Below, piece after piece: positions 3,970-44,800 of a stretch of DNA of 64,000 nt (the first letter of the stretch is position 1; every line of letters begins with the position of its first letter). The translations under genes and the position numbers were made by a program. The stretch is from Anaerorhabdus furcosa (GTDB lineage Bacteria > Bacillota_I > Bacilli_A > Erysipelotrichales > Erysipelotrichaceae): contig NZ_FUWY01000001.1 of NCBI RefSeq assembly GCF_900167375.1, positions 310,001-374,000 of the forward strand, in the 5' to 3' direction. The notes beneath the pieces were generated by a model, which saw only the letters and a program-made list of their open reading frames with translations, had not been told where the DNA came from and did no database searches.

Positions 3970-5278
3970 AATTTTTTTCAGAACTATCGTGTGATGTGTT
4001 GTACCAACCAACAACACCATCTACATTCATAAATGTTAATAATGTAAATAGAATTAAAAATGCAAACAAACAATTTTTTAAAGTTTTAAATCTTATATTC
4101 AACACATGCGTGATGATAAACACAAAGAAGACTAGCAACAAAATCATAAACCACATCGTAACAATTCTTAATGTTGTTAAACCATAAGCACTTATATACA
4201 ACAACATTTTTGACATGGATAGAACGCCCATGATGATTGATACAATTGAAAATCCCAATGTTAAATACTTTACTGTTTTGTTATCATTATTTTTACTCAA
4301 TGAATTCATAATCATGATTATAATTAAATTGATTACGGCAATACGAATTAGCTCGAAGAAACCACTTCTTGCATATTCTGCATAAGTATAACCTAGTGGT
4401 AATTGTCCTATTATGCCATTTGTATAGTACGTAATTTGAGCAACGAAGAAAATCAGATAAACTATTAATAAAGGCACAAATGAAATTATCATTGTTAATG
4501 ATTCCATAGTAATTCTTTTTTCATTCTTTGAGAATACTTTCTTAATTTCTTCTTTTTCATTTCCTTTAACTACACCATACATGAATGAAGCAGTTAATGA
4601 ACCAAACACTATATCCACAAAAATTCGATCCAATTGCACATCATTGAACATCTCTAAAATCTCTGTCATAAAATTACTTACAGATTTCATAAATAAATAA
4701 TCTGCTTGAACAAGTAAAGATAAGATTACAACCATTAGGGGTCCTGCTATGCATAAACCAATAATTATACTTTGTGTTGTTTTATTTTTTTTCTTATTTT
4801 TTGTAAAGGTTGTTAATACTTTAAATAAACCGCCAAAGCATGTAAATGGTGTAACGAAAATACTATCTACAAATTCCATACAATTAATGTCTTTTGTTTT
4901 ATCCCAAGGACGTTCAACATAAGCATAGCCAATGATGAGCGCCGCAATCATAAAACATAGACCCATAAAATGAACAAATTCATTGTTAAATATCGTAAAA
5001 CTTAAAGAGAAGCACGCTAGATAGGCAATGCCAATTTTACATTCCAGCACTATATTTTTTTTAGTTTTGATTAAGTAAAAAACAAGTGTACCCAACAAAA
5101 GAATAAAGAAAATGGATAGGCTACTAAACTTGCCATTGAAGAAATTATCCACTAGGAAAATTCCCAGAGCCCAAAAAATAAATCCCAATATTTTTTCGAT
5201 ACTTTTTGCTTCATTTAAAATTGGTGGTTGTGTGCTGGATTGAGTCAATTCATTAGAAATCATTTTAGGTTCAATCAT
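3968..5278 (-). CDS. Multispanning membrane protein, DUF4153/DUF4173-like
   Basis: This 436-residue integral membrane protein has about ten to twelve hydrophobic helices and a basic cytoplasmic loop near residues 160-170 (KNKKKNKTT). The pattern VDSIFVTPF followed by that loop and a long helical C-terminal half fits the DUF4153/DUF4173 group, whose function is unknown. Its start lies 2 bases from the stop of the XRE gene, so the two are translationally close. The neighbouring small XRE regulator and DUF2975 protein probably control or accompany it. Confidence 0.7.
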   Translation of the reverse strand: MIEPKMISNELTQSSTQPPILNEAKSIEKILGFIFWALGIFLVDNFFNGKFSSLSIFFILLLGTLVFYLIKTKKNIVLECKIGIAYLACFSLSFTIFNNEFVHFMGLCFMIAALIIGYAYVERPWDKTKDINCMEFVDSIFVTPFTCFGGLFKVLTTFTKNKKKNKTTQSIIIGLCIAGPLMVVILSLLVQADYLFMKSVSNFMTEILEMFNDVQLDRIFVDIVFGSLTASFMYGVVKGNEKEEIKKVFSKNEKRITMESLTMIISFVPLLIVYLIFFVAQITYYTNGIIGQLPLGYTYAEYARSGFFELIRIAVINLIIIMIMNSLSKNNDNKTVKYLTLGFSIVSIIMGVLSMSKMLLYISAYGLTTLRIVTMWFMILLLVFFVFIITHVLNIRFKTLKNCLFAFLILFTLLTFMNVDGVVGWYNTSHDSSEKN

Positions 5279-7142: not shown

Positions 7143-7799
7143 CTAAATAAGTTGACCATCACTCATCTCCATCACCACATCTGCACACTTAGCTAATACA
7201 ATATCGTGTGTTACATAGATTACCGTTGTATTGAATACTTTAGCAGTATTTAGTATAAGTTCGATCACCTTATCACCATTGATCTTATCTAAGTTTCCTG
7301 TAGGTTCATCTGCTAAAATTAGCATTGGTTTAATAATAAATGCACGCGCAATTGCAACACGTTGTTGCTCACCACCGGAAAGTTGATAAGGTTGCTTTGC
7401 AAGTAATTCATTCAAACCTAATAAATTTACTAGTTCATTAAAATAATTCATATCAACTTTCTTTTTATCTAGTAATAAGGGTAAGCAAATATTATCTTTG
7501 ATTGAATATTCTGGCAGCAGATTGAAATTTTGATATATAATTCCTATCTTTGTTCTTCTATATAAGGCACGTTTTACATCATTAAAATGACTTACATCTT
7601 GATGATCTAAATGAATTACACCTTCAGTAGGATAATCAAGTAACCCCAACATTTGTAAAAGTGTAGATTTACCACTACCACTTCTACCTATAATTGCCAC
7701 AACTGATCCTTCATCTACACTGAAACTAATATCTTTTACAGCTATTGTCTTTTCATCATACTTCTTTGTAAGATTTTCTACTTGAATTAATTTATTCAT
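7143..7799 (-). CDS. ABC transporter ATP-binding protein, MacB/LolD-like
   Basis: This 218-residue ATPase has Walker [10 protein letters not shown] at residues 38-46, the signature LSGGEQQ at 141-147 and Walker B ending LADEP with Asp165 and Glu166. This is the short MacB/LolD/BceA type that pairs with FtsX-fold permeases. It begins 1 base after the permease stop, so the two form a unit. Systems of this type act in mechanotransmission, lipoprotein handling or peptide-antibiotic resistance; which applies here is not evident, and no BceRS-like two-component system is nearby. Confidence 0.92.
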
Positions 7800-7800
7800 T

Positions 7801-10293
7801 CTAAACTCCTCCTGATTCTTTCATATTTTCAATAGGTTCATTCTTTATCATTTTATAAAGTGGATACAATTGAACTAATAACAAAATGAAGATTAATAAT
7901 AAATTTAAGATGATAAGTTGACTTATAGGATACTCAAAATAAATATCATAGCCATAAACGAAAATCCTTATGAATTCAATCAGATACTTAGGTTGATTTA
8001 TATAACTCACTAGAGCAAGCACAAGTCCATTTACAATGATAATCGTAGGTATGAATATTTTTATTATCTTCATTAGATAAGCCTTGATTAATTGTTTCTT
8101 TGAACAACCCAACCCTTGTAATATTCCTATTCTTTTTCTCTCCACAAGTAATGAAGAACTGACAATATTGCATAACAAGATAAGTCCAAATAATGAAGCT
8201 ATTGATCCAGATAACGCAACAATTAATGCCTTCTGTGTACACTCACGATACAATTTATCAACCAGTTCATACGTGTCAGATTGAAGTATGCCTCCACGAG
8301 ATGTAACTATAGAAGCTATTGATTTCCTTGTTGCAAATGAAGCATTTTCATCAATTGTTAGGTTGATGTTTGTATACTCATCCTCTGTAACTCGTCTTTC
8401 TTCCATCCTTAACATCAGTTTCTTATAAAATTCTTGTGATATGAATATGCTACCATTTGTGATTGCCAATTCATTGCCAAACAACAATTGATCATTTAAT
8501 TTTGGAAGAACACCTAATACTTCAATATCTTTTTCAAATACATTTGATTTGGTATAATCATATCCCTCTTCATCAACAAACTGATTTGATGTTAACGCAA
8601 GCATTGAACCTTTTTCTACAGGCAATTCTAACAATTCAAAATCATCATTTTGCCTTACACTTATAAAATTATATACCATCCCTGTTTTCTTATCTTTTTC
8701 CAAAATAGCTTGGTAATAAATAACTCCTTCACCATTTTTAAATCGTACTGCTTCTTCTTTATTCATATCTGATGATTCAACAAGCAAGTCACATTCCTTG
8801 TTAGACAAAACATAGAAATTAGTCAATAATATTCCTCTTTTATAAAAGTGAATAGGTGGTGTTTCAAAACTTGCATCATAAATATCATCATATGCTTTAT
8901 TTTCTCTAATATCCTTCGATGTGACAAAGTATTGTAATGGAACGAAGTTAATAGCTGATACTTCTTTAACCTCTGGTATTTTCTCTAAATCATCCAATAT
9001 TCTTCCATCAAAAAACTTCTCTGATTTACTTTGAATATTTAATGCAGCATAAGAAACATTTTTTTCATATGGCATCATCTGCCACTTGGTGAAATAAAGT
9101 GTTCCTATTGAAGTAATAAATATAAATATTATTAATAGGATAACTGTTAATTTTGGCTTTGATGCAATTTCTACCTTCTTCAGTATTTTTGTTTTCTCAT
9201 TTCTTAATGTACCTGGATTATCAATACGAATCATCATCGCAGAAATAAGAAACGAAGTAAAGCAAACAAAATACATTGAAACTAATATTATTATGATTTG
9301 AATGTATGGAATACTTATTATCGCGTTCTTTGCGAAACTTGTTATAAGGACACCAATTAGTAATCCTATTGGTATCCCTACAACAAAACTAAACGTTAAA
9401 ATAAGCAATGATTCAATAATAACTACTCCTATTATCATTGACCTTGTTGAACCTAAATTAGACATTGTCACAAAACTTTTTTTCCGCTTATTTAATAACA
9501 AGGAATAAATAATTAAATTAGAAACAAACGTCAACAGAATAATTCCAATTTGAATCATCATTAAAGAATAATCAAAACTATTATCGATAGGATACGCAAA
9601 CTCATTTACTACTATATCTTTGTTTGCACTCTCCATTAATTTATAAGACTCAAATGCCTTGGATCCTTTCCAAAATATTTGATATTGCTTAGAATAATTA
9701 TTTATAGAATCACTAACGATTGCATTTACTAATGGTGTTTCATTTTTTTGCCAGAAAACATCATACGCAGGTAATATGCCAACTAATTTGTACTCAATAA
9801 ATTTTGTTTCAACTAGCTCTCTTTGTAATTTATCTGTGTCATAATCCATTGGTAAAACTGGAATTTTTACAAATTTATCTAAGTCATAAGAATAGCCTAA
9901 ACTATCTAAAAGAGATGTTGTTAATGCGATTTCATTCTCATGTGTAGGTAGTTTACCATTCAATAATTGAATCCTTCCTAATTCTTCAAAGTTATCATCA
10001 ACTTTGCCAACAGAACCAAGAATTATATTGTTATCACAAATTAATGCATACTGTTCAACTATACTACTTACACCTTCTTGACTTACAACAGGATCGATTA
10101 CATTATAAGTTGTTGTATACCATTCTCCATAAAGATTTCTTCTTGTTTCTTCCAAGCTCTTTAAACTACTTTGGTTATAAATTAAATATGATACCGAGAA
10201 AACAATTGATAAAATAATCATCATCACCAATAAAAAATTTTGTCTTTTTCTTCCAATTATCCCTTTTGCTGATAAATAAAAGTTTGCCTTCAT
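7801..10293 (-). CDS. FtsX-like ABC transporter permease with two large ectodomains
   Basis: This 830-residue permease has an N-terminal helix (residues 17-40), a first ectodomain of about 190 residues, three helices around residues 235-360, a further helix near 380-400, a second ectodomain of about 250 residues and three C-terminal helices. This is the duplicated FtsX/MacB permease layout. The ATPase gene follows directly. The first ectodomain has a stand-alone relative at 3393-3899. The upstream region (10294-10390) is AT-rich, with TTATT-type ribosome spacing and no regulator adjacent. Confidence 0.9.
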   Translation of the reverse strand: MKANFYLSAKGIIGRKRQNFLLVMMIILSIVFSVSYLIYNQSSLKSLEETRRNLYGEWYTTTYNVIDPVVSQEGVSSIVEQYALICDNNIILGSVGKVDDNFEELGRIQLLNGKLPTHENEIALTTSLLDSLGYSYDLDKFVKIPVLPMDYDTDKLQRELVETKFIEYKLVGILPAYDVFWQKNETPLVNAIVSDSINNYSKQYQIFWKGSKAFESYKLMESANKDIVVNEFAYPIDNSFDYSLMMIQIGIILLTFVSNLIIYSLLLNKRKKSFVTMSNLGSTRSMIIGVVIIESLLILTFSFVVGIPIGLLIGVLITSFAKNAIISIPYIQIIIILVSMYFVCFTSFLISAMMIRIDNPGTLRNEKTKILKKVEIASKPKLTVILLIIFIFITSIGTLYFTKWQMMPYEKNVSYAALNIQSKSEKFFDGRILDDLEKIPEVKEVSAINFVPLQYFVTSKDIRENKAYDDIYDASFETPPIHFYKRGILLTNFYVLSNKECDLLVESSDMNKEEAVRFKNGEGVIYYQAILEKDKKTGMVYNFISVRQNDDFELLELPVEKGSMLALTSNQFVDEEGYDYTKSNVFEKDIEVLGVLPKLNDQLLFGNELAITNGSIFISQEFYKKLMLRMEERRVTEDEYTNINLTIDENASFATRKSIASIVTSRGGILQSDTYELVDKLYRECTQKALIVALSGSIASLFGLILLCNIVSSSLLVERKRIGILQGLGCSKKQLIKAYLMKIIKIFIPTIIIVNGLVLALVSYINQPKYLIEFIRIFVYGYDIYFEYPISQLIILNLLLIFILLLVQLYPLYKMIKNEPIENMKESGGV

Positions 10294-10396
10294 TTTATTA
10301 CCTCGATTCTCCCACTTTGTTTTATTTACTTAAATCTTAATCAAGTGATGTGTAATCTTTGTGTAACATTATCATTCTTAACATTTAATTCAAAAT

Positions 10397-10442
10397 AAAA
10401 CCCGTAATTATTTGTATGAATATACAAATGACTACGAGTTTT
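10397..10442 (-). terminator. Terminator of the XRE-TPR regulator gene
   Basis: A long imperfect hairpin is formed by AAAACCCGTA (10397-10406) with TACGAGTTTT (10433-10442) around an inner TTTGTAT/ATACAAA stem. It lies about 50 bases after the regulator stop codon on its strand. Confidence 0.65.
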
Positions 10443-10493
10443 CTATAAATGTTCTAAATACAATCTGACTTTCTTACTTATCAGAAACTTATT

Positions 10494-11705
10494 TCATGAT
10501 TTTATTTTAGTTAATTCTTGTAGGTATTTAAAAGCATCTTTATATTGATGTTTATTCTTGTAATACTTAATAATATTGTTATAAATCATTTCAATTGTTT
10601 CAAGATCACCTTTGTTCCCTACTTCAATGCTAGCTTCTTTTAACAATTCGACATACTTTTCACTTTTATCCTCACCATCCAATTGCATTTTGATGATAGA
10701 TAATCTTTTGATTTCCAATGAATTATTTTTATTGAATTTTATTCCTTCTTTTATAATCCTATTCACTTCATCTCGCTTGCACAGATTAAAATAAATAAGT
10801 GCCAAATGATAATAATATTCATCATCTTCTTCTGCATTGCATAGTAGTCCAAACCTCAATGCCTCTTCATAATTTTTACTCTTTATATAGGTCCAACAAA
10901 TATTACTATAAATAACGCAAATATCTCGTTGAGTTATATTTGGTACTTTAAGCAATAACATGAACTCATTAATTGCTTCTTCATAATCACCATTCTTTGA
11001 TAATAAAATAGCGATATGCAATTTAGTATAGTATATTCTTTTAAAATTCATTTCATTTCCAAATAACTCTAATGCCTGTAAACAATAGATTAATGCTCGG
11101 CAATAGTTATTCGTTCTATAATAGTACATGCCTAAATGATATGCCAGTAAACTTGTTGCGTGATCATATGTCCCTAAATCAATTGCTTTTTTATAGAAAG
11201 ATAATGCCTTGTTATTATCAATACTTAAATAGTAGCACCCTATATAATCGTAGATAATTTGCTGATTTCTCGAATCATATTGCCCTACTAGTTTTTCCAT
11301 TTCTTCTACAATGATCTTAACATTTTTACTATTTGCCTTATACAAAACATAGTACGCTAATCGAACAATTAAGTACTTATGATACACAACTGAATATTTG
11401 TAGTTTTTTCCTTCTTCGATTATTGTTTTTGTTTCTTCTAAATCAATATTCAAATACAAAAATTCATGCAAAATATTATCTAACTTTATATTGTATTCTG
11501 AAGTATCTTCTTGCTTTTTGTAATTCACACCTAAGGTTTTAAATATTACACTGTATATATTTTCATCAACATCAACAATGCCATTTTCAATTTGAGAAAT
11601 ATACCCTCTTGAATAACACGCTAATTGCGCTAATTTTTCAACAGTTAAACCTTTAGATAAACGCAGTTTCTTAATTAAAATACCCAATCGATTGAACTCA
11701 CTCAT
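10494..11705 (-). CDS. XRE-TPR regulator, RRNPP (Rgg/PlcR/ComR)-like
   Basis: This 403-residue protein has an N-terminal Cro/CI-type DNA-binding domain (about residues 6-60; YSRGYISQIENG is the recognition region). A long helical domain of repeated Tyr/Ala/Leu-rich pairs, such as NNKALSFYKKAIDLG and NNYCRALIYCLQALELFG, is typical of TPR repeats. This is the architecture of the RRNPP regulators that bind short secreted peptides. I chose the internal ATG at 11703-11705 (MSEFNRLG): GGGG and AGGAG lie upstream of it, while the alternative start 30 bases earlier has no ribosome site. It is divergent from a 69-residue secreted-peptide gene, a typical layout for a peptide-sensing pair. Confidence 0.85.
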   Translation of the reverse strand: MSEFNRLGILIKKLRLSKGLTVEKLAQLACYSRGYISQIENGIVDVDENIYSVIFKTLGVNYKKQEDTSEYNIKLDNILHEFLYLNIDLEETKTIIEEGKNYKYSVVYHKYLIVRLAYYVLYKANSKNVKIIVEEMEKLVGQYDSRNQQIIYDYIGCYYLSIDNNKALSFYKKAIDLGTYDHATSLLAYHLGMYYYRTNNYCRALIYCLQALELFGNEMNFKRIYYTKLHIAILLSKNGDYEEAINEFMLLLKVPNITQRDICVIYSNICWTYIKSKNYEEALRFGLLCNAEEDDEYYYHLALIYFNLCKRDEVNRIIKEGIKFNKNNSLEIKRLSIIKMQLDGEDKSEKYVELLKEASIEVGNKGDLETIEMIYNNIIKYYKNKHQYKDAFKYLQELTKIKS

Positions 11706-11833
11706 ATTTGTTACCCCACTCCTAGATTCTATCATAAAATTTCAGTAATTATGTTAAAAACTTTTTTTAAAAACACGCGAATATAAGCATATTTTCATCA
11801 ATTTTTTTAACCCAATCTTTCAAAAGTTTGTCG

Positions 11834-11852
11834 TATAATTAGCACATAGGAG
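11834..11852 (+). promoter_or_regulatory. -10 box and strong RBS of the secreted-peptide gene
   Basis: TATAAT at 11834-11839 is a perfect -10 box. The -35 region 17-18 bases upstream (around CCCAAT) is poor, as at promoters that need an activator. AGGAGG at 11847-11852 lies 8-9 bases before the ATG. Confidence 0.6.
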
Positions 11853-11861
11853 GCATTATTT

Positions 11862-12071
11862 ATGCAAAATTTTCAATCCAAATTAGTTAAGCTTTTTCTA
11901 GTTTCAAGTGTTTCGTTCCTCTTCTTAGGATCATTAACTATTCGTCCTAATGCAGAAGTTGAACCAGTTAAACCATGTGTATATGAAGAAGATGGTACTC
12001 TTTCAAAAGATAGCCCAATTCCATGTGCACCAACAATTGTTCCATTTAATCATACTGGTGGACCTCTATAA
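11862..12071 (+). CDS. Small secreted peptide precursor (candidate signalling peptide)
   Basis: This 69-residue product begins with a Lys-containing N-terminus and a strong hydrophobic core (KLFLVSSVSFLFLGSL, residues 10-25), a Sec signal peptide. The exported part is short, proline-rich and has two cysteines (CVYEEDG and IPCAP). The C-terminus is VPFNHTGGPL. A perfect -10, an AGGAGG ribosome site and a strong terminator 6 bases after the stop show that it is expressed as its own unit. The divergent neighbour is an XRE-TPR regulator, so this may be the pro-pheromone from which a C-terminal peptide is cut. I recognise no family, and the mature peptide is unknown. Confidence 0.7.
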   Translation: MQNFQSKLVKLFLVSSVSFLFLGSLTIRPNAEVEPVKPCVYEEDGTLSKDSPIPCAPTIVPFNHTGGPL

Positions 12072-12076
12072 AAAAG

Positions 12077-12117
12077 AACAGTTGATTTGTCTAAGTTAGA
12101 CATCAACTGTTTTTTTA
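12077..12117 (+). terminator. Strong terminator of the secreted-peptide gene
   Basis: AACAGTTGAT (12077-12086) pairs with ATCAACTGTT (12102-12111). An inner GTCTAA/TTAGAC stem continues the helix, and seven Ts follow. Confidence 0.88.
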
Positions 12118-33242: not shown

Positions 33243-36200
33243 TTATTCTTTTATCTCTATTTCTGATTCAATAGATGTTTCAGAAGAAACTGGAGTTTCT
33301 GTAGTAACTGGTTCTTCAGATGGAACTGGTTCTGGAATTATGCTTTCACCCAGTTCTTTTTCTTCTTCATCAGCTACTGGTAATGTAACTTCGTTATTCA
33401 TATCAAGATTCGTTGTTTGGGATATGTCAGAACTAACTCTAGTATACTTATCCGTTCCTTCAATCTTATGTCCATTTCCAATTTCAGAAAGCGAGTTCAC
33501 AGTCCACGTGCAATTAATCAATTGAACTATTGTTGCATCATCTCTCAAAAAGCCTACTAATGCACCTACTTTATCAGCACTTGGTCCTGTAACGGTGCCT
33601 GTTGCTGAACAGTTTTCAAGAATAGTGAAGATTTCATTTGTTCCTAGAACTTCACCAATTAAGCCTCCGATAGAAATATTATTAGCAGTTATGTAGTCTT
33701 CCAATGCATTAGAGCTTACATTTCCTGTTGATGAACTATCTTTAACACCTACTCCTCTGCTTAGAAACCCAACTAAGCCACCTACTTTACGTGTTCCTTC
33801 AACATTTACATTTGAAGAACAATTAATAATCATATAAGTAGAGCTATTTAATTCCCCTGTAAATCCAACTAATCCGCCTACATTATCACCTTCAAAGTTT
33901 GCAGCTAGATATATACCTCTTACAAAACTTGAAGAATCAACATCAACTCTACTATTGCTAACTGAACCATAACCTTGACCACCCAATCCACCTACTTTGT
34001 AGTTACCAACAATTTCAATATGCCCTTGCACAGCACAATTATCGATATCACCTGTAGAATAACTACCAATTATTGCACCTACATTTGCTTTACCAGTTAA
34101 GATTGCATTATTTATTGTAACGTTTTTAATTACTCCTGGTGTAATCATATTTCCAAACAAACCAGTTCCCAAATCAGAATTTTCGTTTGAACATGTTAAA
34201 TTAGATATTACTTTATTGTTTCCATCAAATGTACCCATAAAATGTTTCTCAGTTGTTCCTATTGGTGTCCAATTGAGATTACTCAAGTCAATATCATTTG
34301 ATAATTTGACTGTCTTTCCTTGGAATGTATTTCCATTATTTACGAGTTGAGCTAAACCAGCTAACTCCTTGGCATTTCTAAGTATGTATACTTCTTCATT
34401 TACATCATACCAATTTACATCAATATCTGTACCATTCCATGGTAAATTTATATTTTTATCATTTACCTTACCATATGTAACATTACCCGTTAGTTTAGCA
34501 TCAACTTCGATAATAAGTTCTGTGTCATCTTCAATTCTAACACTTGCTTCACTTGGAATGATCAACTCGCTATTTGCTTTTACAACAAATATGTTCTCAC
34601 CATCTTCATGTGTGTTTGATTCATTAAAACTATAATTCTTGGTTGCCATTTCAATAATTGCCTCATCTGGGAAAGCATATTGTAAGCCACCTAATAAACC
34701 TGTTTCATTTGATCCATAATAGTATCGATAAGTATTCCAACCTGTATTATGTCCATAATCAGAGTAAATAAAATCATTGGCACAATTTTGGTAACTATTT
34801 GATTTTGCTAAAGTTGCATAATCCAAAGTCAAATTAACTGTTTTAGTAGCTCCTTTTTTGTTATTCATGCCATCTAAAAATCCTAGACCTGCAGTAACAA
34901 TAATTCCTGAACTAGACCAATCTTCATTCTCATGCTGATAGCCAATAATTGTATTATTATTAATTACAACGTTAGTTGCTTTATCAGTTCCTGCATACAC
35001 TACAACTCCATTTGAAACTAATCCTGAAAGTTGTTTATTCGAATTAGAAACAAGTGTGTTATTTTCTAATGTGAATTGATTGGAAATAGCCCAAATAGCC
35101 GCCTTCCCTAGCAACGGTGTTGTTTCATTTAAATAGCCTTGATTGTGAATTTCCAAATCGCTAATTTTTATTCCATCTGCATTTAAGATAAATGAACCAT
35201 AAACTTCGCTTCCTGTTTCACCTTGAATTGTTGTTGCTGCATTAATCGAATATACTTTATAGTCTTGATCTGAACCAATAATACCTCTTACTTTTATGCT
35301 GTTTTTTTTGTTTGCTAACGCTTGTTCCAACTGTTGCTTAGTTTGTACTATGACTTCTGCCGATTTATCTGACATATAGAATGGCACAGTTTCTACAACA
35401 GTACTTCCACTAATAATTTTTGGATTTTCAATTTCTTTATCTTTTATAATTACTGTTCCAGTATTTTCAAAAGATTCAATTTTGACTTCAGCAACACTTG
35501 CCCATCCTGCTAAACTACCAGCATTAACTAAAGTAGCATTTACTGTTCCTTGATTTGAACAATCTTTAACAAATACGGTTGAATCATATCCACTTGTATT
35601 AATCACGTTATCTTTTTCCCAATATGGAAATTGATTTTTATCAATCGTTGAAGACCCTGAGAATTTTGATGTAGCTTCAACAATACTTCCCCAAATACCA
35701 CCTACATTTGATTGCCCTTGAATACTTACATTAGAACCAACTTTACAATCAATAAAACTATATACTGCATTATTATTGGCAATATTGTAATGGCGATAAT
35801 TCCACATTTGCCCAACAATTCCGCCAGCCGCCCATGACTCATCACTATACACAATACCTGCTTTTACCGTTCCATCAATAAGTTCAATATTTTCAAATGT
35901 TGAACCACCAAAACTATATGCCGCAACAACCGCTACACGACTTTCACCCGTAATTTCAAAATTTGAAAACTTCACATTTTTAATAGTAGCCTTACCCAAT
36001 GCACCAAAAAGCGCAGAACCATCATTGACTGTATCTCCATTGTTATAACATTTCAAACCACTAATTGTATGATTATTACCATTTAATGTTCCTAGGAATG
36101 TACGGTAATAAAACCAATAGTCTTTATAGTTTGAACCTGCATCTTGACCATCCAACGTAGCTCCACCTTTTGCATAGCGATACCCAATCGGTGTCCACTC

Positions 36201-37349
36201 TTTCTTATTTAAATTTATATCTGATCCTAAGTTGACAGTTTTACCTTCAAATGTAATTCCATCATTAACAAGTTTTCCAAAACCGGCAAATTGTGCACCT
36301 GTTGTAATCGTATAAGTAGTTGAACTTTCACTATACCAACTAGTATCTATTGTTTGTCCATCCCACGCAGTATCAACTGGTGGTGTCGTTGGATTCGGTG
36401 TTGACGCTGGTACTTCCGGAGTTGGGGTAGCTGTTGGCACCACAGTAGGAGTTATTGTAGGTTTTGGTGCTACCGTTGGTGTTGCAGAAGCAGTAGGTGT
36501 TGGTGTACTTATAGGATTATTTGTAACATCTTGAATTGGATTAGCACTCACAACTATGCTATCTGGTTTGATGTCCCCAGTAATATGTGTTGAATCAGTT
36601 GTTAAAACTGATGTGACTTTTCCCTCGCCTGATAAACCTACTTTTGTTTCTGTTGCTAAACTATTAACAACAACATCTTTCGATATTGTTAAATCAGTAT
36701 TTTTCGCATTTGCTGAAACCTTAACAATATCAATAGATGCTTCTATTTTCACTGTACTTTGTGCTTTCAAACTCAATTCGCCAATAGGTGATTGAACATG
36801 TAAACTTGTGGGAGCATTTACCTCAATAGTGGATACCTTTGCATTAGGTTGCACCATTACATTGCTACCACTACTTGTATCTTTAACATTAATGGAATTT
36901 ACCTCACCATTAACTTCGATATTAGAATTTTGCATTACCGTTACTTGATTAACTTTGGTGTTTTCTGAAACGACTATACGTACTGGATTGTTTACTTTAT
37001 TCGCTTCAATTTCATTAATAACACAATTATTAACATGGATTGAATTAAGTCCACCACCCTTTACAATTAATTTCCCTTGTATTGAAACATTATCTAAAGT
37101 GACGTTTCCTTCTCCAACCTTTTCATCGATAATTAAATCACCTTTGAAATTAACATTTTTAAGTGTAACTTCTGAAGCAGTAATTGTTCCTGTATCAAAC
37201 GAACCTGTTTCTTCATAGGATTTGGACTCATCATAAATCATTTCTGACGTTTTCTCATTGTTTGCTTTTTCATCTTTTTTCGTTGTACAGCCACTTAGCA
37301 AACTCAACCCCATCCCCAAACACAATACCAATGTAAATAATTTTTTCAT
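33243..37349 (-). CDS. Giant surface lipoprotein with beta-helix-like and GLUG-type repeats (paralog 1)
   Basis: This protein of about 1,368 residues has a lipoprotein signal ending LLSGC (Cys21). I chose the ATG at 37347-37349 (MKKLFTL), which has AAGGGGAAAG upstream. Residues of about 45-280 resemble a right-handed beta-helix domain (GDLIIDEKVGEGNVTLDNV...GKLIVKGGG). A Thr/Pro-rich linker of about 60 residues follows. Then a unit beginning WDGQTIDTSWY...WTPIG appears, and again near residue 1050, together with repeated VGGLVGF/GLFG segments typical of GLUG motifs. The C-terminus is acidic. It has no sortase or S-layer anchor, so only the lipid holds it. It follows paralog 2 on the same strand with a 120-base gap that has no riboswitch. 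Confidence 0.82.
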   Translation of the reverse strand: MKKLFTLVLCLGMGLSLLSGCTTKKDEKANNEKTSEMIYDESKSYEETGSFDTGTITASEVTLKNVNFKGDLIIDEKVGEGNVTLDNVSIQGKLIVKGGGLNSIHVNNCVINEIEANKVNNPVRIVVSENTKVNQVTVMQNSNIEVNGEVNSINVKDTSSGSNVMVQPNAKVSTIEVNAPTSLHVQSPIGELSLKAQSTVKIEASIDIVKVSANAKNTDLTISKDVVVNSLATETKVGLSGEGKVTSVLTTDSTHITGDIKPDSIVVSANPIQDVTNNPISTPTPTASATPTVAPKPTITPTVVPTATPTPEVPASTPNPTTPPVDTAWDGQTIDTSWYSESSTTYTITTGAQFAGFGKLVNDGITFEGKTVNLGSDINLNKKEWTPIGYRYAKGGATLDGQDAGSNYKDYWFYYRTFLGTLNGNNHTISGLKCYNNGDTVNDGSALFGALGKATIKNVKFSNFEITGESRVAVVAAYSFGGSTFENIELIDGTVKAGIVYSDESWAAGGIVGQMWNYRHYNIANNNAVYSFIDCKVGSNVSIQGQSNVGGIWGSIVEATSKFSGSSTIDKNQFPYWEKDNVINTSGYDSTVFVKDCSNQGTVNATLVNAGSLAGWASVAEVKIESFENTGTVIIKDKEIENPKIISGSTVVETVPFYMSDKSAEVIVQTKQQLEQALANKKNSIKVRGIIGSDQDYKVYSINAATTIQGETGSEVYGSFILNADGIKISDLEIHNQGYLNETTPLLGKAAIWAISNQFTLENNTLVSNSNKQLSGLVSNGVVVYAGTDKATNVVINNNTIIGYQHENEDWSSSGIIVTAGLGFLDGMNNKKGATKTVNLTLDYATLAKSNSYQNCANDFIYSDYGHNTGWNTYRYYYGSNETGLLGGLQYAFPDEAIIEMATKNYSFNESNTHEDGENIFVVKANSELIIPSEASVRIEDDTELIIEVDAKLTGNVTYGKVNDKNINLPWNGTDIDVNWYDVNEEVYILRNAKELAGLAQLVNNGNTFQGKTVKLSNDIDLSNLNWTPIGTTEKHFMGTFDGNNKVISNLTCSNENSDLGTGLFGNMITPGVIKNVTINNAILTGKANVGAIIGSYSTGDIDNCAVQGHIEIVGNYKVGGLGGQGYGSVSNSRVDVDSSSFVRGIYLAANFEGDNVGGLVGFTGELNSSTYMIINCSSNVNVEGTRKVGGLVGFLSRGVGVKDSSSTGNVSSNALEDYITANNISIGGLIGEVLGTNEIFTILENCSATGTVTGPSADKVGALVGFLRDDATIVQLINCTWTVNSLSEIGNGHKIEGTDKYTRVSSDISQTTNLDMNNEVTLPVADEEEKELGESIIPEPVPSEEPVTTETPVSSETSIESEIEIKE

Positions 37350-37431
37350 TTTCTTTCCCCTTTTCACTTTACTTAACACTCAAATAGCACATCATCAACT
37401 GCACAACTTTTTTGTGTTGCGTATACTTTTA

Positions 37432-37459
37432 AGAGAGCTTGCTTGGCAAACTCTCTTTT
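37432..37459 (-). terminator. Hairpin between lipoprotein paralogs 1 and 2
   Basis: AAGAGAG and CTCTCTT (37432-37459) pair around a 14-base loop. A weak terminator or processing hairpin; the T-run on the minus strand is short, so read-through from paralog 2 to paralog 1 is possible. Confidence 0.45.
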
Positions 37460-37470
37460 ACAATTACACT

Positions 37471-40400
37471 TTAAAAATTCAAATCTGTTTCATTAATTTG
37501 AGTTTCCGATTCCTGTGTTGTTTCAATTAAATCTGTTTCTTTATTTTCATCAGTTTGTTCACTATTTTCTTCAGGTACTAAATCAAGATCAGTTGGTACT
37601 GTGCTAGGTTGTAAAGATTTCACTTCCAGTACAACTTCTTCTTCCTCACCCCAAGAATCTACAGTTGCATTAAATCCAGGTGCGGATTCTGTAACTTCAA
37701 TAATTGCAGTTTTTGTCACACCTCGATGCGTTGCAGAAATTGTTGCTTTTCCTTTTGCTTTTGCGCTCACCAAACCATTTTGGTCAACTGTTGCAATATT
37801 TTCATTTGAAGATGACCACACAATTAAATTATTATTTGATTGCGGCTTTGTAAGCGTTAGTTGAACAGTTTCATTTACATTTAATTTATGTTCTGTAATA
37901 TCTAAACTTATACGATCATTTTCCAATGGAATATCGATACTTTGTGTTTCTTTTGTGATTTGCCCATTATAAATAACGATAATATCAACATATAGTTTAT
38001 CTACAGTATCCAACCAACCCACTGGCTGAACAGTACTTGGATTTGTCCAAGTTTGCCATGATGAACTTCCATTAGGTAAAGAATATCCAATGTTGGTTCC
38101 ATTTGTATCACCTAAATAGTTTCCATCCATATCTGCAAGATAACCACCCCAAAGTTTATTTTTAACTAGTGGGTTATTATTGCCAGTTGTTAACGGGTAG
38201 CTAACATCTCCTTGTTTATAGTAATATGTCAAAATAATATCATTACCTATTAGTTTTGCAGCATTTTGTACTACATTTGAATCACTGCTTGAAAGCAAAT
38301 TAGTATATTGTTCACTAACCATGTCAATACTTGTTAGCTGACTATTATAATTATCAAAAGTAAATCCTTTATCAAGTGTAAATCGAACAATTACGTTTTC
38401 TCCACGACGATATTCAACTTCAAAATTCGAAATAGTCACTGGATTTGTATCCAATAAGGAGTATACATCTCCAACTTGAACATTTGGATATTGATCATTA
38501 CTCTTTTTAGTAATTTCAAGAGTATTATCTTCTCGCAAAGTAAAATATACATTATTTGAATAACCCCCAATATACCGATTAAGAGTTTCTTGTTTTATAC
38601 TTCCATCAGCATTATATTCAATTTCATCAATTCTCAAATCACCAAAATTATTGTCACTTACTGCCACTTTATAATTTTCATCTTCATACTTAATTTGAAT
38701 TACTTCATTTGTATTTCTTTGATTTACGAAAGTACCTACTACGCCTAAATCAGGTTTTGGTAAACTTCCATTTTTCTTTAATATAATTTTATAACTTGTT
38801 GTCTTTCCATTTGGATTTTTTAATTCTACAATCAATTTATTTTGTCCATTTAATGATTGTTTTGGAACAATCGTAGTATCATTAGAAAAATTATAAATAG
38901 ATTGAGGTTCATTCATTGTATACAGTTTATATGTTGTATCACTACCAATTTGCGGGTTAACCTTAACAACAATAGATTCCATAGCATTCCAATCAATTTC
39001 ACCAATTCCTTCAAAGTAATAATCTCCATAGCCAGGATAGGTTGTATCAAAGTTTAAAATTTGATCATTTATCATAATCTTCGAATTGATGCTATCAACT
39101 GAATATTTACCTGTAATTTCATCAATAAAGAACGAATTCTCTAATAATATTAGTTTAAGGCTTTCCGCTGTTGTATTGTTATATTTCAAAATTTTTGTAT
39201 TACTTCCAGAAAAATTAACTAACATTTTGCTAGCTGATGTATATTCTCGACCAGCATTACCATAATCATTATTTAATTCTGTGATAATACAATTATTAAT
39301 AGTAATTTCTTTACTTGCAATATATAGTGGATTCTTTATTTCTTGATTATTTCTACCATTTATCGTTAGAGAATAGCTTCCTCCGTTTGTAGTTAATCCA
39401 ATTAATCTTAATCCAGTTTGTTCAACAAAATTATTAATAACTACTTCTGATGAAGAAGTACCAATATAACTACCTTCTGCAACTATACCTGCAAACCCAG
39501 TAATATTATCCCAAGTTCCTTTAACACTTCCATTATTTATACAGTCAGTTAGAACAATTCCATAATATTCTCCATCCACAAAATCTTCATTGCTTCTACC
39601 TCGACCAATAATTCCACCAGCAGCTCCTTTACCTACACCATTATAAATGGATTCGCTAGTTACTTCACCATTATTGACAGTTTGAATTATTTGCCCTGTA
39701 TATTCTCCCGCTATTCCTCCAACACTTGTTGGACTATTGCTGCTAAAGTTTGAATACACACGTCCGTTATTTGTACTATTTACAATTGCGTTGAATTGAA
39801 TTATATTTGGTGTTCTACTTGAAAAATGTCCAGTTCCAGCTATTCCTCCAACTGTTAAACCACCATTTACACTACCATTGTTTATACAATTTTCTATTGC
39901 ATAAACATTTGGGGTACCATCTTCTTGACTCATTTTTCCAACAATTCCGCCAGTTGATGTAACTCCATTAACTGTTCCATTATTCACACAATTTTTAATT
40001 GCAGACTGATTAGCTGCTACAAATTGACCAACAATTCCTCCAGTATTTCCTGCAGTACCATTTACGATTGCAACATTACTACAATTCAAAATAATTGATC
40101 CTTTTGTACTTAACCCCGCAATTCCTCCAACTTCTTTAGCAGTTACACTACCACTAGTTGTTGAATTACTAATTGTACTTGTATTCGTTATTTTTCCCGC
40201 AATTAATCCCGCACAATCGTTTGAATCTACACTAACATTACCTACTACATTCAAATTTTTTATAGTTCCATTTGAAACAACACTAAATAAACCTGTTGGA
40301 ATTGTTACATCGTCACTAGGTGACTTCGTAATATTTATATTTTTAATTACTAAATTATTTCCATCAAAAATACCTTTAAAAGAATTAGTATCTCCTTTAC

Positions 40401-41574
40401 CAATTGGAGTCCATTCAAAATTTGCTAAGTCAATATTAGCATTCAGCGTAATTATTTTATTTTCGAAACTATTTCCATCACTCACAAGTTGTGCTAAACC
40501 AGCAAGTTGATCTGCCTTATTAATAACAAATGAGTTAGTCGAATCGTTATACCACGAGCTATCAACAGTTGTACCATCCCATGCTGATGTAGGAATTGGT
40601 GTTGCTGTTGGTGCCGGTGTTGGATTAGAAGTTTCTGGTGTTGCTGTTGGTGCTTGTGTAGGTACCACTGTTGGTTTTGGTGTTGCAGGTTTTGGTGTTT
40701 GCGTTGCTACAGGCGTTGGTGTTGCCACTGCAACTTCTTTATTTGTATCCTGAATAGGATTCGTACTTACTGTGGTTGTATCTGCTTTTATATTACCTGT
40801 AACATTTGTTTTATCTGTTGTTAATACTGTTTGTAATTTTCCATCACCTGAAACATCTACTTTAGTCTCAGTTGCCAAGCTACCTACCACTGCATCTTTT
40901 CCCAAAGTGATAGCTGTATTTTGTGCATTTGAAGAAACAGTCACTGTAGTTACAGGTGCTTCAAGATTTACTTTACTTGCAGCTTTAATATCGAGTTGCC
41001 CAATTGGTGCCTTTGATGATAATTCAACAGTTGCATTTAGATCAACTTTTTTTATTTGTGCATTTTCTTTTATTTCAACAACACTTCCTGTTGAAGAAGA
41101 TGTTAATGAAAGATTTTTAATTTCACCTTGTACTTCGAGTTTAGTTTCACTTGCGATTTCTAGGTTATCCACTGATGTGTTTTCAGAAACGATAATACGC
41201 ACTTTCCCATCAGGTCGATTACTCGAAATAGAGTTAACTTTACTATTATCAATATGAACAGAGTTCTCTCCTCCACCATTAACAATTAATTGTCCTTTTA
41301 TTTCTACACCATCAAGAAATACATTTCCTTCTCCAACTTGCTTATCAATGATTAAGTCTTGTTCGAATGTTGTATTTTTAATTGTTACATCTTGCGCAAC
41401 TATTTTTCCTGACTCTAACTTTTCGTTTTCATAAGTTTTAGACTCATCAAAAAGCATTACAGTTTCTTTTTGATCTACAACTGCCGTTTCATCTTTTGGT
41501 TTATTGCTTGAACAACCTGTTAAAGTCGCAACAATAAGCAAAATACTCAAAAATTGTATTCCCAGTTTTTTCAT
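37471..41574 (-). CDS. Giant surface lipoprotein with GLUG-type repeats and Big2-like domain (paralog 2)
   Basis: This 1,367-residue protein has lipobox TLTGC (Cys21). The same beta-helix-like N-domain and Thr/Pro linker as in its two neighbours lead to WDGTTVDSSWY...WTPIG and then many GGIVG/GGIAG units (about residues 430-700), typical of GLUG repeats. A C-terminal domain shared with paralog 3 contains LYVDIIVIYNGQ. Near residues 1240-1320 a bacterial Ig-like group 2 domain is visible (NNLIVWSSSNENIATVDQNG). The tail is acidic. AAAGGAGA precedes the ATG. It is the gene directly downstream of an intact c-di-GMP-I riboswitch, so its expression should follow c-di-GMP levels. It is probably an adhesin or matrix protein, by inference. 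Confidence 0.85.
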   Translation of the reverse strand: MKKLGIQFLSILLIVATLTGCSSNKPKDETAVVDQKETVMLFDESKTYENEKLESGKIVAQDVTIKNTTFEQDLIIDKQVGEGNVFLDGVEIKGQLIVNGGGENSVHIDNSKVNSISSNRPDGKVRIIVSENTSVDNLEIASETKLEVQGEIKNLSLTSSSTGSVVEIKENAQIKKVDLNATVELSSKAPIGQLDIKAASKVNLEAPVTTVTVSSNAQNTAITLGKDAVVGSLATETKVDVSGDGKLQTVLTTDKTNVTGNIKADTTTVSTNPIQDTNKEVAVATPTPVATQTPKPATPKPTVVPTQAPTATPETSNPTPAPTATPIPTSAWDGTTVDSSWYNDSTNSFVINKADQLAGLAQLVSDGNSFENKIITLNANIDLANFEWTPIGKGDTNSFKGIFDGNNLVIKNINITKSPSDDVTIPTGLFSVVSNGTIKNLNVVGNVSVDSNDCAGLIAGKITNTSTISNSTTSGSVTAKEVGGIAGLSTKGSIILNCSNVAIVNGTAGNTGGIVGQFVAANQSAIKNCVNNGTVNGVTSTGGIVGKMSQEDGTPNVYAIENCINNGSVNGGLTVGGIAGTGHFSSRTPNIIQFNAIVNSTNNGRVYSNFSSNSPTSVGGIAGEYTGQIIQTVNNGEVTSESIYNGVGKGAAGGIIGRGRSNEDFVDGEYYGIVLTDCINNGSVKGTWDNITGFAGIVAEGSYIGTSSSEVVINNFVEQTGLRLIGLTTNGGSYSLTINGRNNQEIKNPLYIASKEITINNCIITELNNDYGNAGREYTSASKMLVNFSGSNTKILKYNNTTAESLKLILLENSFFIDEITGKYSVDSINSKIMINDQILNFDTTYPGYGDYYFEGIGEIDWNAMESIVVKVNPQIGSDTTYKLYTMNEPQSIYNFSNDTTIVPKQSLNGQNKLIVELKNPNGKTTSYKIILKKNGSLPKPDLGVVGTFVNQRNTNEVIQIKYEDENYKVAVSDNNFGDLRIDEIEYNADGSIKQETLNRYIGGYSNNVYFTLREDNTLEITKKSNDQYPNVQVGDVYSLLDTNPVTISNFEVEYRRGENVIVRFTLDKGFTFDNYNSQLTSIDMVSEQYTNLLSSSDSNVVQNAAKLIGNDIILTYYYKQGDVSYPLTTGNNNPLVKNKLWGGYLADMDGNYLGDTNGTNIGYSLPNGSSSWQTWTNPSTVQPVGWLDTVDKLYVDIIVIYNGQITKETQSIDIPLENDRISLDITEHKLNVNETVQLTLTKPQSNNNLIVWSSSNENIATVDQNGLVSAKAKGKATISATHRGVTKTAIIEVTESAPGFNATVDSWGEEEEVVLEVKSLQPSTVPTDLDLVPEENSEQTDENKETDLIETTQESETQINETDLNF

Positions 41575-41593
41575 GTTGTCTCTCCTTTATAAT

Positions 41594-41706
41594 ACAAAAA
41601 GTGTACCCGGCTATACCCAGTACACTTATGGTTCTTGTGCAACTGGCTACCATTTAACAGGCCCTATAGCTTTGTGCCCCTACCTTTCGATAGGTTTACC
41701 GATGAT
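41594..41706 (-). ncRNA. c-di-GMP-I (GEMM) riboswitch with intrinsic terminator
   Basis: The minus-strand aptamer reads GGTAAACCTATCGAAAGGTA, then GGGGCACAAAGCTATAGGGC, then CTG with a variable loop, then ATGGTAGCCAGTTGC. This matches the class I c-di-GMP aptamer, including the CGAAAG tetraloop, the CAAAGC element and the GCCAGTTGC 3-prime strand. A terminator follows at 41594-41627 (AAGTGTAC/GTACACTT with T-run). The lipoprotein gene starts 20 bases beyond. On or off sense cannot be decided by eye. Confidence 0.9.
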
Positions 41707-41718
41707 ATCTTTACTTTA

Positions 41719-41746
41719 ATTATACCAACTCAATTTATTATTACAA
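41719..41746 (-). promoter_or_regulatory. Promoter of the riboswitch-controlled lipoprotein gene
   Basis: TTGTAA (41741-41746) and TATAAT (41719-41724) are 16 bases apart; the -10 is extended by TGG. Transcription would begin a few bases before the aptamer. Confidence 0.7.
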
Positions 41747-41821
41747 GTAACAAATACAACTTTAAATGTAAGATACGACAAAGAAACATAACTCTCAGGG
41801 TTCGTTTTGATGCGTAAAATA

Positions 41822-41852
41822 GGAAAGGACAATCAAGTAGATTGTCCTTTCC
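41822..41852 (-). terminator. Terminator of lipoprotein paralog 3
   Basis: A perfect 13-bp stem (GGAAAGGACAATC at 41822-41834 with 41840-41852) and 5-base loop lies 32 bases after the stop codon. The minus strand continues with TATTTTA. Confidence 0.75.
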
Positions 41853-41883
41853 TTACAAAGTTTTCCCGATTTTAATCACATTT

Positions 41884-44800
41884 CTATTGATTTGAACTTT
41901 CTTCTTGATCGATAGAATCAAAAAGTATAGGTAAATCTTTCTCAATTTCATCTGTTTTTTCATTTGATTCATCTAAACTAGGTACACTCTCATCTAAATT
42001 TTGTGATCCCTCATTAATTTGATTAACTATTGTATCATTTGGAATTTCTACTGATACAGTTTTCTTTATTACTTTACCTTCCACAACTATTACAATATCA
42101 ACATATAATGATTTCCCCTTAACTGGATCTAACCATTTAGTTGCCACTGTTCCTATTTTTGGGTTTGTTGCGGTTAACCATGTTTTATTCGATAAAACCG
42201 TACTACCCAGCATTGTTCCGTTGATTATATTTCCATTAGGAATCGTAACAGTATTTGCTCCATCTTTATAAATTAAATACTCACTCCAAAACTTATTCTT
42301 CATTAAAGGAATTTGACTTCCTTGTAAATCAACTGTCATTAAAGGAATCTGATTGTTATCTTCAATATAATAGTAATAATAAATAATATCATTACCTAAT
42401 TTTCTTGCAGCTTGTTCCTGTTCAGTTTGTGTACCCGCTAGAATTTGAGCATAAAGAGTCGCAATATCCACTTCTGTTGGAGGTGTTAAAATGAACCCAC
42501 GGGTCAAATCAAATTGTACAACGATATCTTCACTCACCGGATTATATCGAATACTTTCATTTGAAATTGACGGTATGTTTAAATCAATTACATTTCCTTG
42601 TACCACTCCTGTTAATTTCCCACCTTCATTTATAACTAGTTCTGTATCATTTGTAATAATTGCATTTGCCGTTGTTGGAACTATTAACTCGCAGTTACTT
42701 TTGACAACGAAATTATTATTTAGTGATTCTCCTGTAACTTCTTTAGTAAATGTATAATTCCCCGGTGCTAATTCTACTTTACTATTCACTTTACTTGAAT
42801 ACATTAATCCATCTATTACTCCTTTTGGATTTGATGCAAATGTATATTTATAATATCCATCTTCTGCTTTTAATGAATAATCCGTATATACGAAATCATT
42901 ATAACAACTATAATAAGTATTTTGTTTTGCAATTGACGCATAATCGAGGGTTAGATTAACCGTTTTGCTTGAACCTTTTTTATTTGTAGTATCATAGGGG
43001 AAATATTGCCCTGCAGAGAATATCGTTCCCGTACTTGACCAATTGTCATTCTCATAGCTATAGCCTGTTATTTCATTATTCTCAATTCTTATATTTGTAT
43101 TGTTATCTGTTCCAGCTAACAAAACTATACCATTCGAAATCGCTTCTTCACCGTTAACTGTGTTCGATGAAATCAATTTGTTATTTGTTATTTCAACACG
43201 ATTCGATACTACAGTTATAGCATTTCTGCGTGCATCAACTGGATTGCCTGTTATCCATCCTTGATTGTGGATCTCTAATCCATTGATTTTGACATTATCC
43301 ACATCAATGATGAATGATCCATAGATTTTGCTATTAGTAGCTCCTAAAATTTCTTTAGTTTTAGTCACACGATAAATTGTATAATCACTGTCAGTTCCAA
43401 TTGTCCCTCTAATTTCAATCTTTGCTACATTGGATTTCAAAGCGTTCTCTAGTTGTTCTTTTGTTTGAACTATTGTTTTCGTTTCTTTATCCGATGCATA
43501 GAATGGAACTGAATTCACCACTGTATTTCCACTAATAATTTTTGGATTCATATCTTCACTATTTTTAACAAACACTTGCCCTTTATTTTCAAAAGATTTG
43601 ATATCAACCACTGAAGTATATGCCCATCCTGCTAAACTACCTGCATTTATATAAGATGCATAGATTTTACCTTCATTCTTACAATTATCAACAAATACAG
43701 TCGAATCATACCCCGTATAATTAACTGTGTCGGCTCCCTTCCAGTTTGGATATTCCGTTCTTGATGAAGCATCGAAACTTCCAATCTTCTTCGAACTAGC
43801 CTCTGTGATACTTCCCCACATACTTCCAACATTCGCTTCTCCACTAATTGTAACATTCGAATTTACAACAATGTTTTGAAATGAGTAGGTTGCATTATTT
43901 TTACCAACCGCATAGTGTGAGTAGTTCCACATTTGTCCAACAATTCCACCCACAGCCCACGATTTACATGTAGGATCTGTTGATTGAGGATCATTTACAT
44001 ACACTTGTCCATTGCTTAGAGTTATACCGTCAAATGTTGAACCACCTAATGCATATGCCGCAACAACAGCAACTCTACTTTCTCCACCGACATTAAATCC
44101 GTCAAAATTTAAGTTTTTAATTGTTGCATCACTGACAAATCCAAATAATGCGGCTCCATCATTTGCTGTCTTCGAATCATTATAAACTTTCAATCCTTTG
44201 ATTGTATAATTGTTTCCATTAAGTGTTCCTGAGAACGTGTTGTGATAAAACCAATATTGTGAGTAATTGCTACCCGCATCTTCATTTTTATATGTGGTTC
44301 CTGCACGTGCATATCTTAGTCCTATCGGGGTCCACAGTTTATTATTTAAGTCAATATCTCCACCCAAGTTAATCGTTTTCCCAGCAAAATTATTTCCTTC
44401 ATTAACCAACTGTCCAAATCCCGCAAGCTGTGCCCCATTATATAACGTAAATGTTGTTGATGCCGAATTATACCAACTGGTATCAATTGTTACTCCATCC
44501 CAAGGCAACTTAGAAACCGGCGGTTCCGTTGGTTGGGGTGTTGGATTAGAAATACCAGGTGTTTCTGTAGGTTTGGGTGTTTCTATAGATTTCGGAGTCT
44601 CTGTAGGCTTTGGTGTTGCAGGTTTTGGTGTATTTGTAATAGTTGGTGTAGGAGTTGTTGCTGCTGCACCTTTATTGATTGCATCTTGTATTGGCGTTGT
44701 ACTTACTGTTGTATTCTCAGGTTTAACATTGCCTGTCACAAAAGTTTTATCTGTTGTTACTACAGTTCCAAGTTTTCCTGTGCCCGATACATCCAGTTTT

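Follow-up and report, generated by a model that had tools for sequence, protein, structure and literature searches.

A gene pair of Anaerorhabdus furcosa, in which a 403-residue XRE-TPR regulator lies divergent from a small gene for a secreted peptide, is probably a peptide signalling pair of the RRNPP type with the C-terminal octapeptide of the precursor as its signal, and it apparently belongs to an undescribed NprR-like subfamily of these systems. The pair is located in a stretch of 64,000 nucleotides, referred to here as the window, and its features are collected in the table. The assignment rests on the gene layout, on the presence of three paralogous pairs in a single genome, on pairing statistics across the order, on the common C-termini of the precursors and on a receptor that resembles NprR and Rap in both profile and fold. 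The divergent arrangement with a 69-residue Sec-type ORF had been read from the window before, with a gap of about 155 bases; we measured 156 bp.

Features of the regulator-peptide pair and its neighbourhood (positions in the window)
Feature	Position	Strand	Basis
ATPase partner of FtsX-type permease	7143-7799		ORF, Pfam
FtsX-type permease 3′ of the regulator (possible target, or neighbour only)	7801..10293	-	ORF, Pfam
Hairpin, probable terminator of the regulator gene	10400..10439	-	Folding
XRE-TPR regulator, 403 aa (putative cytoplasmic peptide receptor and transcription factor)	10494..11705	-	ORF call, Pfam, profile and fold matches
Nine TPR-like helical hairpins, residues 66-403 (putative peptide-binding domain)	10497..11510	-	AF2, NprR as top PDB match
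HTH DNA-binding domain, residues 6-61	11523..11690	-	Pfam HTH_3, HTH_31
Divergent control region, 156 bp	11706..11861	.	Between regulator and peptide ORFs
-10 box TATAAT of the peptide gene	11834..11839	+	Sequence
Shine-Dalgarno AGGAGG, 8 bases before ATG	11848..11853	+	Sequence
Secreted propeptide gene, 69 aa	11862..12071	+	ORF, paralogues, codon pattern
Sec-type signal peptide, residues 1-31 (cleavage after A31 guessed by eye)	11862..11954	+	Sequence; inference
Conserved two-cysteine spacer, residues 37-55, KPCVYEEDGTLSKDSPIPC	11970..12026	+	Invariant columns in three paralogues; third-position excess
Predicted mature pheromone FNHTGGPL, residues 62-69, after Pro61	12045..12068	+	C-terminal pattern in 23 propeptides; inference
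Intrinsic terminator of the peptide gene	12072..12116	+	Folding (-20.4 kcal/mol, z -5.7)

The propeptide (MQNFQSKLVKLFLVSSVSFLFLGSLTIRPNAEVEPVKPCVYEEDGTLSKDSPIPCAPTIVPFNHTGGPL) has a basic start and a hydrophobic core and is led by a strong Shine-Dalgarno sequence, as judged by eye and by a hydropathy filter. Searches of Pfam and NCBIfam with the 69 residues gave no family match, in line with its having been described as unrecognised. The original prediction of a perfect -10, a poor -35, AGGAGG and a strong terminator was borne out by a TATAAT box, a best -35 match of 1/6 at a spacing of 16-18, AGGAGG itself and a hairpin of -20.4 kcal/mol. A simple terminator scan missed the terminator of the peptide gene because its stem has a bulge, while folding reveals the hairpin. 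On the other strand, the ATG at 11705 gives a regulator of 403 aa, and an alternative ATG further upstream would give 413 aa. Its Pfam matches were HTH_3 (4e-9, residues 11-61), TPR_2 (6e-12) and TPR_12 (5e-8). In single-sequence AF2 runs the TPR domain alone was modelled as 18 helices, that is, nine hairpins (mean pLDDT 74.5), and the full-length protein reached a mean pLDDT of 60.7. Structure prediction had been named beforehand as the check on a TPR groove, and it yielded an HTH and, after it, nine TPR-like hairpins, NprR being the top match. The hairpin after the regulator gene makes the ABC transporter at 7143-10293 probably a separate unit. Elsewhere in the window (33243-45510), three very large ORFs of 1378, 1367 and 1208 aa lie in a row; two of them were scanned by Pfam, one having a GLUG motif only and the other no match, and they are possibly surface proteins.

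To look for relatives, we used the peptide and, separately, the regulator as queries against the organism's own genome (G000; 2.4 Mb in 11 contigs). Each search returned two relatives (E 1e-5 and 1e-4 for the peptide, 38% and 31% identity for the regulator), and these map to the same two places. In the second pair (C2:186 kb) the regulator is divergent from a 65-residue Sec-type peptide across a gap of 169 bp, in the third (C9:43 kb) from a 68-residue one across 151 bp, so that the gaps of the three pairs span 151-169 bp. All three promoters have TATAAT with a best -35 of 1, 2 and 1 of 6, and a terminator-like hairpin stands 3′ of each peptide gene; the peptide genes are single-gene units with terminators. 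Common to the three peptides is K.C.Y....G.L...SP.PC, with ends in GPL, GPV and GPI. Codon differences in the conserved block fall mainly on third positions (for example 3, 2 and 10 at positions 1, 2 and 3), an excess that marks the small ORF as a real gene whose coding sequence is under selection. Two paralogous pairs with an identical layout elsewhere in the genome make the window pair more than chance. Conservation of the small ORF beside the regulator, which the original prediction had staked itself on, was therefore found at three pairs in this genome, and at many more in the order. With their different ends, FNHTGGPL in the window, RMIDDGPV in the second pair and RAHQGGPI in the third, the three would be parallel channels.

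The surroundings of the two additional pairs differ. By the second pair (L036, G000:C2:180000-192000), positions 7498-11980 encode a secreted C39-like protein, a lipoprotein, a LytTR response regulator, a GHKL kinase (Agr-like) and small secreted proteins, and an IS30-like transposase fragment lies at 4872-5144; this region is possibly a signalling or peptide island. The third pair (L037, G000:C9:37000-50000) sits straight after a V-type ATPase operon, and 3′ of its regulator, at 7627-8295, is a gene for a secreted protein of 222 aa with a hydrophobic middle, which matched no Pfam or NCBIfam family.

Beyond this genome, we used a profile of the three peptides (A1) and a profile of the three regulators (A2). 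In 316 genomes of the order A1 found no additional true member, so the exact precursor family is confined to the organism's own species within the genomes searched, while A2 found about 66 distant relatives in 37 other genomes. For pairing we required an ORF of 28-80 aa with a Shine-Dalgarno-led start, a basic start and a hydrophobic core, at most 400 bp upstream of the regulator on either strand; the test is strict, as one of the three pairs in our own genome was missed by it. A small Sec peptide ORF lay directly upstream of 23 of 66 (35%) distant regulators but of only 3 of 289 control genes, these being other genes in the same stretches (Fisher p 7e-16), and one of the three control positives was itself the far neighbour of a true pair. 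No peptide was found by this test at about two thirds of the related regulators, and in other orders of the class a peptide was found at 1 of 18 loci of such regulators. AT-rich DNA commonly contains short ORFs with hydrophobic starts, and the control positives illustrate how an ordinary XRE-TPR regulator might come to lie beside an unrelated one. For the window pair this explanation is extremely improbable in view of the codon pattern and the pairing statistics, and it is refuted by the two other pairs.

Both divergent and codirectional pairs occur within the order. In a tree built from 62 regulators, the clade of the window joins other divergent pairs, with precursor ends GFTIFGPN, GHTVYMPN and LDWVHPKI, and most codirectional pairs fall in other clades. 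Neither profile matched any viral contig of IMG/VR, and A2 gave HTH-level matches only, in unrelated phyla, in a general collection of genome contigs. In phages and plasmids the matches to the TPR regulator were weak only (Bacillaceae plasmids at 25%). At three loci of the family (L043, L045 and L050) the regulators adjoin ABC transporters, including ATPase-permease proteins of 600-700 aa and a DUF1430 protein, whose type has been connected with the export of bacteriocins.

The receptor side of the pair resembles NprR. Searched against the PDB, the A2 profile matched NprR of Bacillus thuringiensis over residues 73-395 (E 2e-12), the sole natural full-length protein among the matches listed, the other strong ones being designed TPR proteins. 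A fold search with the model of the TPR domain ranked apo NprR first (Z 21.8), followed by NprR-NprX (20.9) and Rap proteins (20.9 to 19.2); LGN, an unrelated TPR protein, reached Z 19.5, among the Rap scores, so fold alone is not decisive. Another fold search gave much the same ranking, NprR and then Rap, and a search of BFVD returned generic TPR proteins, mostly from giant viruses. The nine repeats place the regulator with NprR/QssR/Rap or AloR/AimR, and not with PlcR, Rgg or ComR; NprR, QssR and Rap form clan B of a published classification (PMC12700828). In RNPP receptors a strictly conserved Asn holds the peptide backbone, Asn227 in RapF (PMC3601957). In the A2-NprR alignment, which is of low identity, the Tyr-Asn of NprR falls on Tyr189-His190 of the regulator, in TPR4, and among 62 relatives the aligned position is His in 32, Gln in 10 and Asn in 2. 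With a mapping of such low identity the His here is a lead to follow up, and strict RNPP membership is tentative at this one position. Elsewhere, Asn268 (77%) and Arg223 are conserved in the family at about 80%.

Across the order the precursors are mostly unalignable, and what they have in common is a C-terminal pattern. At one extreme of their builds is a signal peptide with some ten residues added (MMKKLLIGLMLIAPLMTAPVAAPVMATYGFTIFGPN), at the other are cysteine-bearing forms with an HxH motif, and in one genus (g36) the precursor is barely more than a signal peptide and about 10 residues (...MATYGFTIFGPN). We compared their ends, which, besides the three of our own genome and the three of the other divergent pairs given above, include LKDEGPAI, FKHEGPKG, DNGEGPLG, LNDEHAPN, LGDEHVPY and KQDENPKF. 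Of 19 clusters, 10 have a Pro between -2 and -4 (permutation p 3e-4); of 23 precursors, 7 have one at -3 (p 9e-4) and 8 at -9 (permutation p 1e-4; 1e-3 over all positions from -5 to -16), with p-values that are somewhat optimistic, as related rows are not fully independent. Pro at -9 together with Pro near the end points to an eight-residue end product released after proline. In the paralogues, the Pro directly before the last eight residues is absent from the second peptide and stands at -11 in the third. The original prediction had placed the signal in a C-terminal fragment, which fits the pattern in 23 propeptides, and of the two candidates the octapeptide FNHTGGPL agrees with that pattern better than the proposed 10-mer VPFNHTGGPL. 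Judging from these sequences, the last eight residues are probably the on/off signal.

The best-conserved part of the three precursors of our own genome is not the C-terminus but the two-cysteine spacer C.Y....G.L...SP.PC, and this bears on two other explanations. The peptide could be an effector, a small bacteriocin or another secreted two-cysteine peptide under XRE-TPR control, with a regulator that senses something else and no re-import. The conserved spacer would suit such a role, as would the neighbours of several family regulators, which include secreted proteins and ABC transporters: the FtsX-type ABC transporter in the window, the C39-like protein with LytTR/GHKL by the second pair and DUF1430 with an ABC transporter at L045. 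Distant pairs, however, have the C-terminal pattern in common and not the spacer, the g36 precursors leave about ten residues past the signal peptide, and the top match of the receptor is a peptide-sensing regulator, all of which makes an effector unlikely. No more probable, in our estimation, is a signalling pair whose active part, perhaps detected at the surface, is the disulfide-linked spacer or some longer fragment. The spacer is indeed kept in all three paralogues under purifying selection, and some codirectional propeptides (L014, L204 and L206) contain a C.YD..TG..C block that looks related, but no membrane segment was seen in the HTH-TPR regulator, and the distant pairs retain the C-terminal pattern only. 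The C-terminal octapeptide remains our preferred signal. A further spacer type, HxH...C (for example HVHDENCGYD), belongs to no family and is found in the codirectional precursors of L008, L011, L014, L047, L052, L163, L184, L204 and L206; from its sequence, it looks able to bind a metal.

The direction of control was considered on the basis of the promoters. The poor -35 of the window promoter had been taken to suggest activation by the regulator. A weak -35 does occur in all three promoters of the genome, but it is only suggestive; we rejected it as proof of activation, considering that about 46% of random positions have a score of 2 or less, and palindromes placed after the -10 in related pairs fit repression. 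Divergent pairs of a related genus (L009, L167, L171 and L172) keep the perfect palindrome GACAAACGTTTGTC between the -10 and the Shine-Dalgarno sequence, and L200 carries the perfect palindrome ACAAGCGCTTGT at the equivalent place; from their sequence and position, both are likely operators. It is thus possible, though not what we would favor, that the regulator represses the peptide promoter and the pheromone releases it, as opposed to an activator compensating for the missing -35. We searched the three control regions of our own genome and found no shared strong palindrome, and the -35 missing from all three promoters fits activation better. Either direction is compatible with an RRNPP-type pair that signals through its octapeptide.

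Among known systems, the closest is NprR-NprX of the Bacillus cereus group, with an HTH and nine TPR-like repeats in about 400-420 aa, a small Sec precursor and a pheromone, about 7-8 residues long, that lies at the C-terminus or close to it, which is the place predicted here. The regulator was nevertheless rejected as an NprR orthologue, since its peptide gene is divergent and upstream, whereas that of NprR is downstream in the same direction; moreover, the precursor described here has a two-cysteine spacer, a His is aligned with the TPR4 Asn, and no sign of NprR's Spo0F-binding role was seen. Rap-Phr, of Bacillus and its phages, shares the TPR fold (Z 19-21), the adjacent small Sec precursor and a C-terminal pheromone like the one predicted here, but Rap has a three-helix bundle in place of the HTH and acts on response regulators, Phr is encoded downstream, and our precursor is longer than a typical Phr. 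PlcR-PapR and TprA-PhrA likewise combine an HTH-TPR regulator with a small Sec precursor and a C-terminal pheromone, here predicted, but have five TPRs, about 280 residues and another layout, and PlcR itself (about 285 aa) was rejected against 403 aa and nine hairpins. In Rgg-SHP and ComR-ComS, too, a short peptide gene adjoins that of an HTH-TPR regulator, for Rgg often in divergent orientation; their receptors are five-TPR proteins and their short precursors are exported by PptAB and have no Sec signal peptide, so that a 69-aa precursor with a Sec-type signal and nine hairpins led us to reject both. Of the original comparison with Rgg, PlcR and ComR, therefore, the pairing of peptide and receptor stands, but the closest known receptor is the nine-TPR NprR/Rap and not the five-TPR group.

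Most known RRNPP systems come from Bacillus, Paenibacillus, streptococci, enterococci and a few clostridia, and within the literature searched no paper joined RRNPP, or XRE and tetratricopeptide regulators, with Erysipelotrichales or Erysipelotrichaceae. For candidate subfamilies RRNPP_detector uses five stated criteria (PMC10075063), and the window pair agrees with each of them, the regulator of 403 aa falling inside 250-500 aa and the precursor of 69 aa inside 10-100 aa. No Erysipelotrichaceae are named in the main text of that work (PMC10075063), although its candidate subfamilies may overlap with the one described here.

Taken in order, the proposed mechanism would begin with the small gene giving a 69-residue precursor whose signal peptide suggests Sec export. 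Signal peptidase and a further protease would then free FNHTGGPL, with a cut after Pro61, and an oligopeptide permease may re-import it, Opp-type SBP_bac_5 proteins being encoded in three regions of the genome. Inside the cell the octapeptide is predicted to bind the concave face of the nine-repeat TPR domain. The peptide-bound regulator would show altered binding to the 156-bp divergent region and so switch the peptide gene and other targets.

These bacteria probably communicate through a set of peptide signals. More tentatively, and with the chances a little short of even, the order may hold an undescribed RRNPP branch of NprR-like receptors with His or Gln in TPR4, precursors of three builds (a signal peptide with about 10 residues, a C.YD...SP.PC spacer or an HxH/Cys spacer), comparable octapeptide ends that carry a Pro close to the end, and several channels in parallel in each genome. 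If true, the order, whose bacteria have small genomes, would hold a second large RRNPP set in which an eight-residue code is visible, with several pairs in each genome. Synthetic peptides could then serve as handles on how these bacteria behave, where almost no handles exist, and the pairs would form a natural series for how receptor and signal stay matched; the predicted octapeptides make the idea directly testable.
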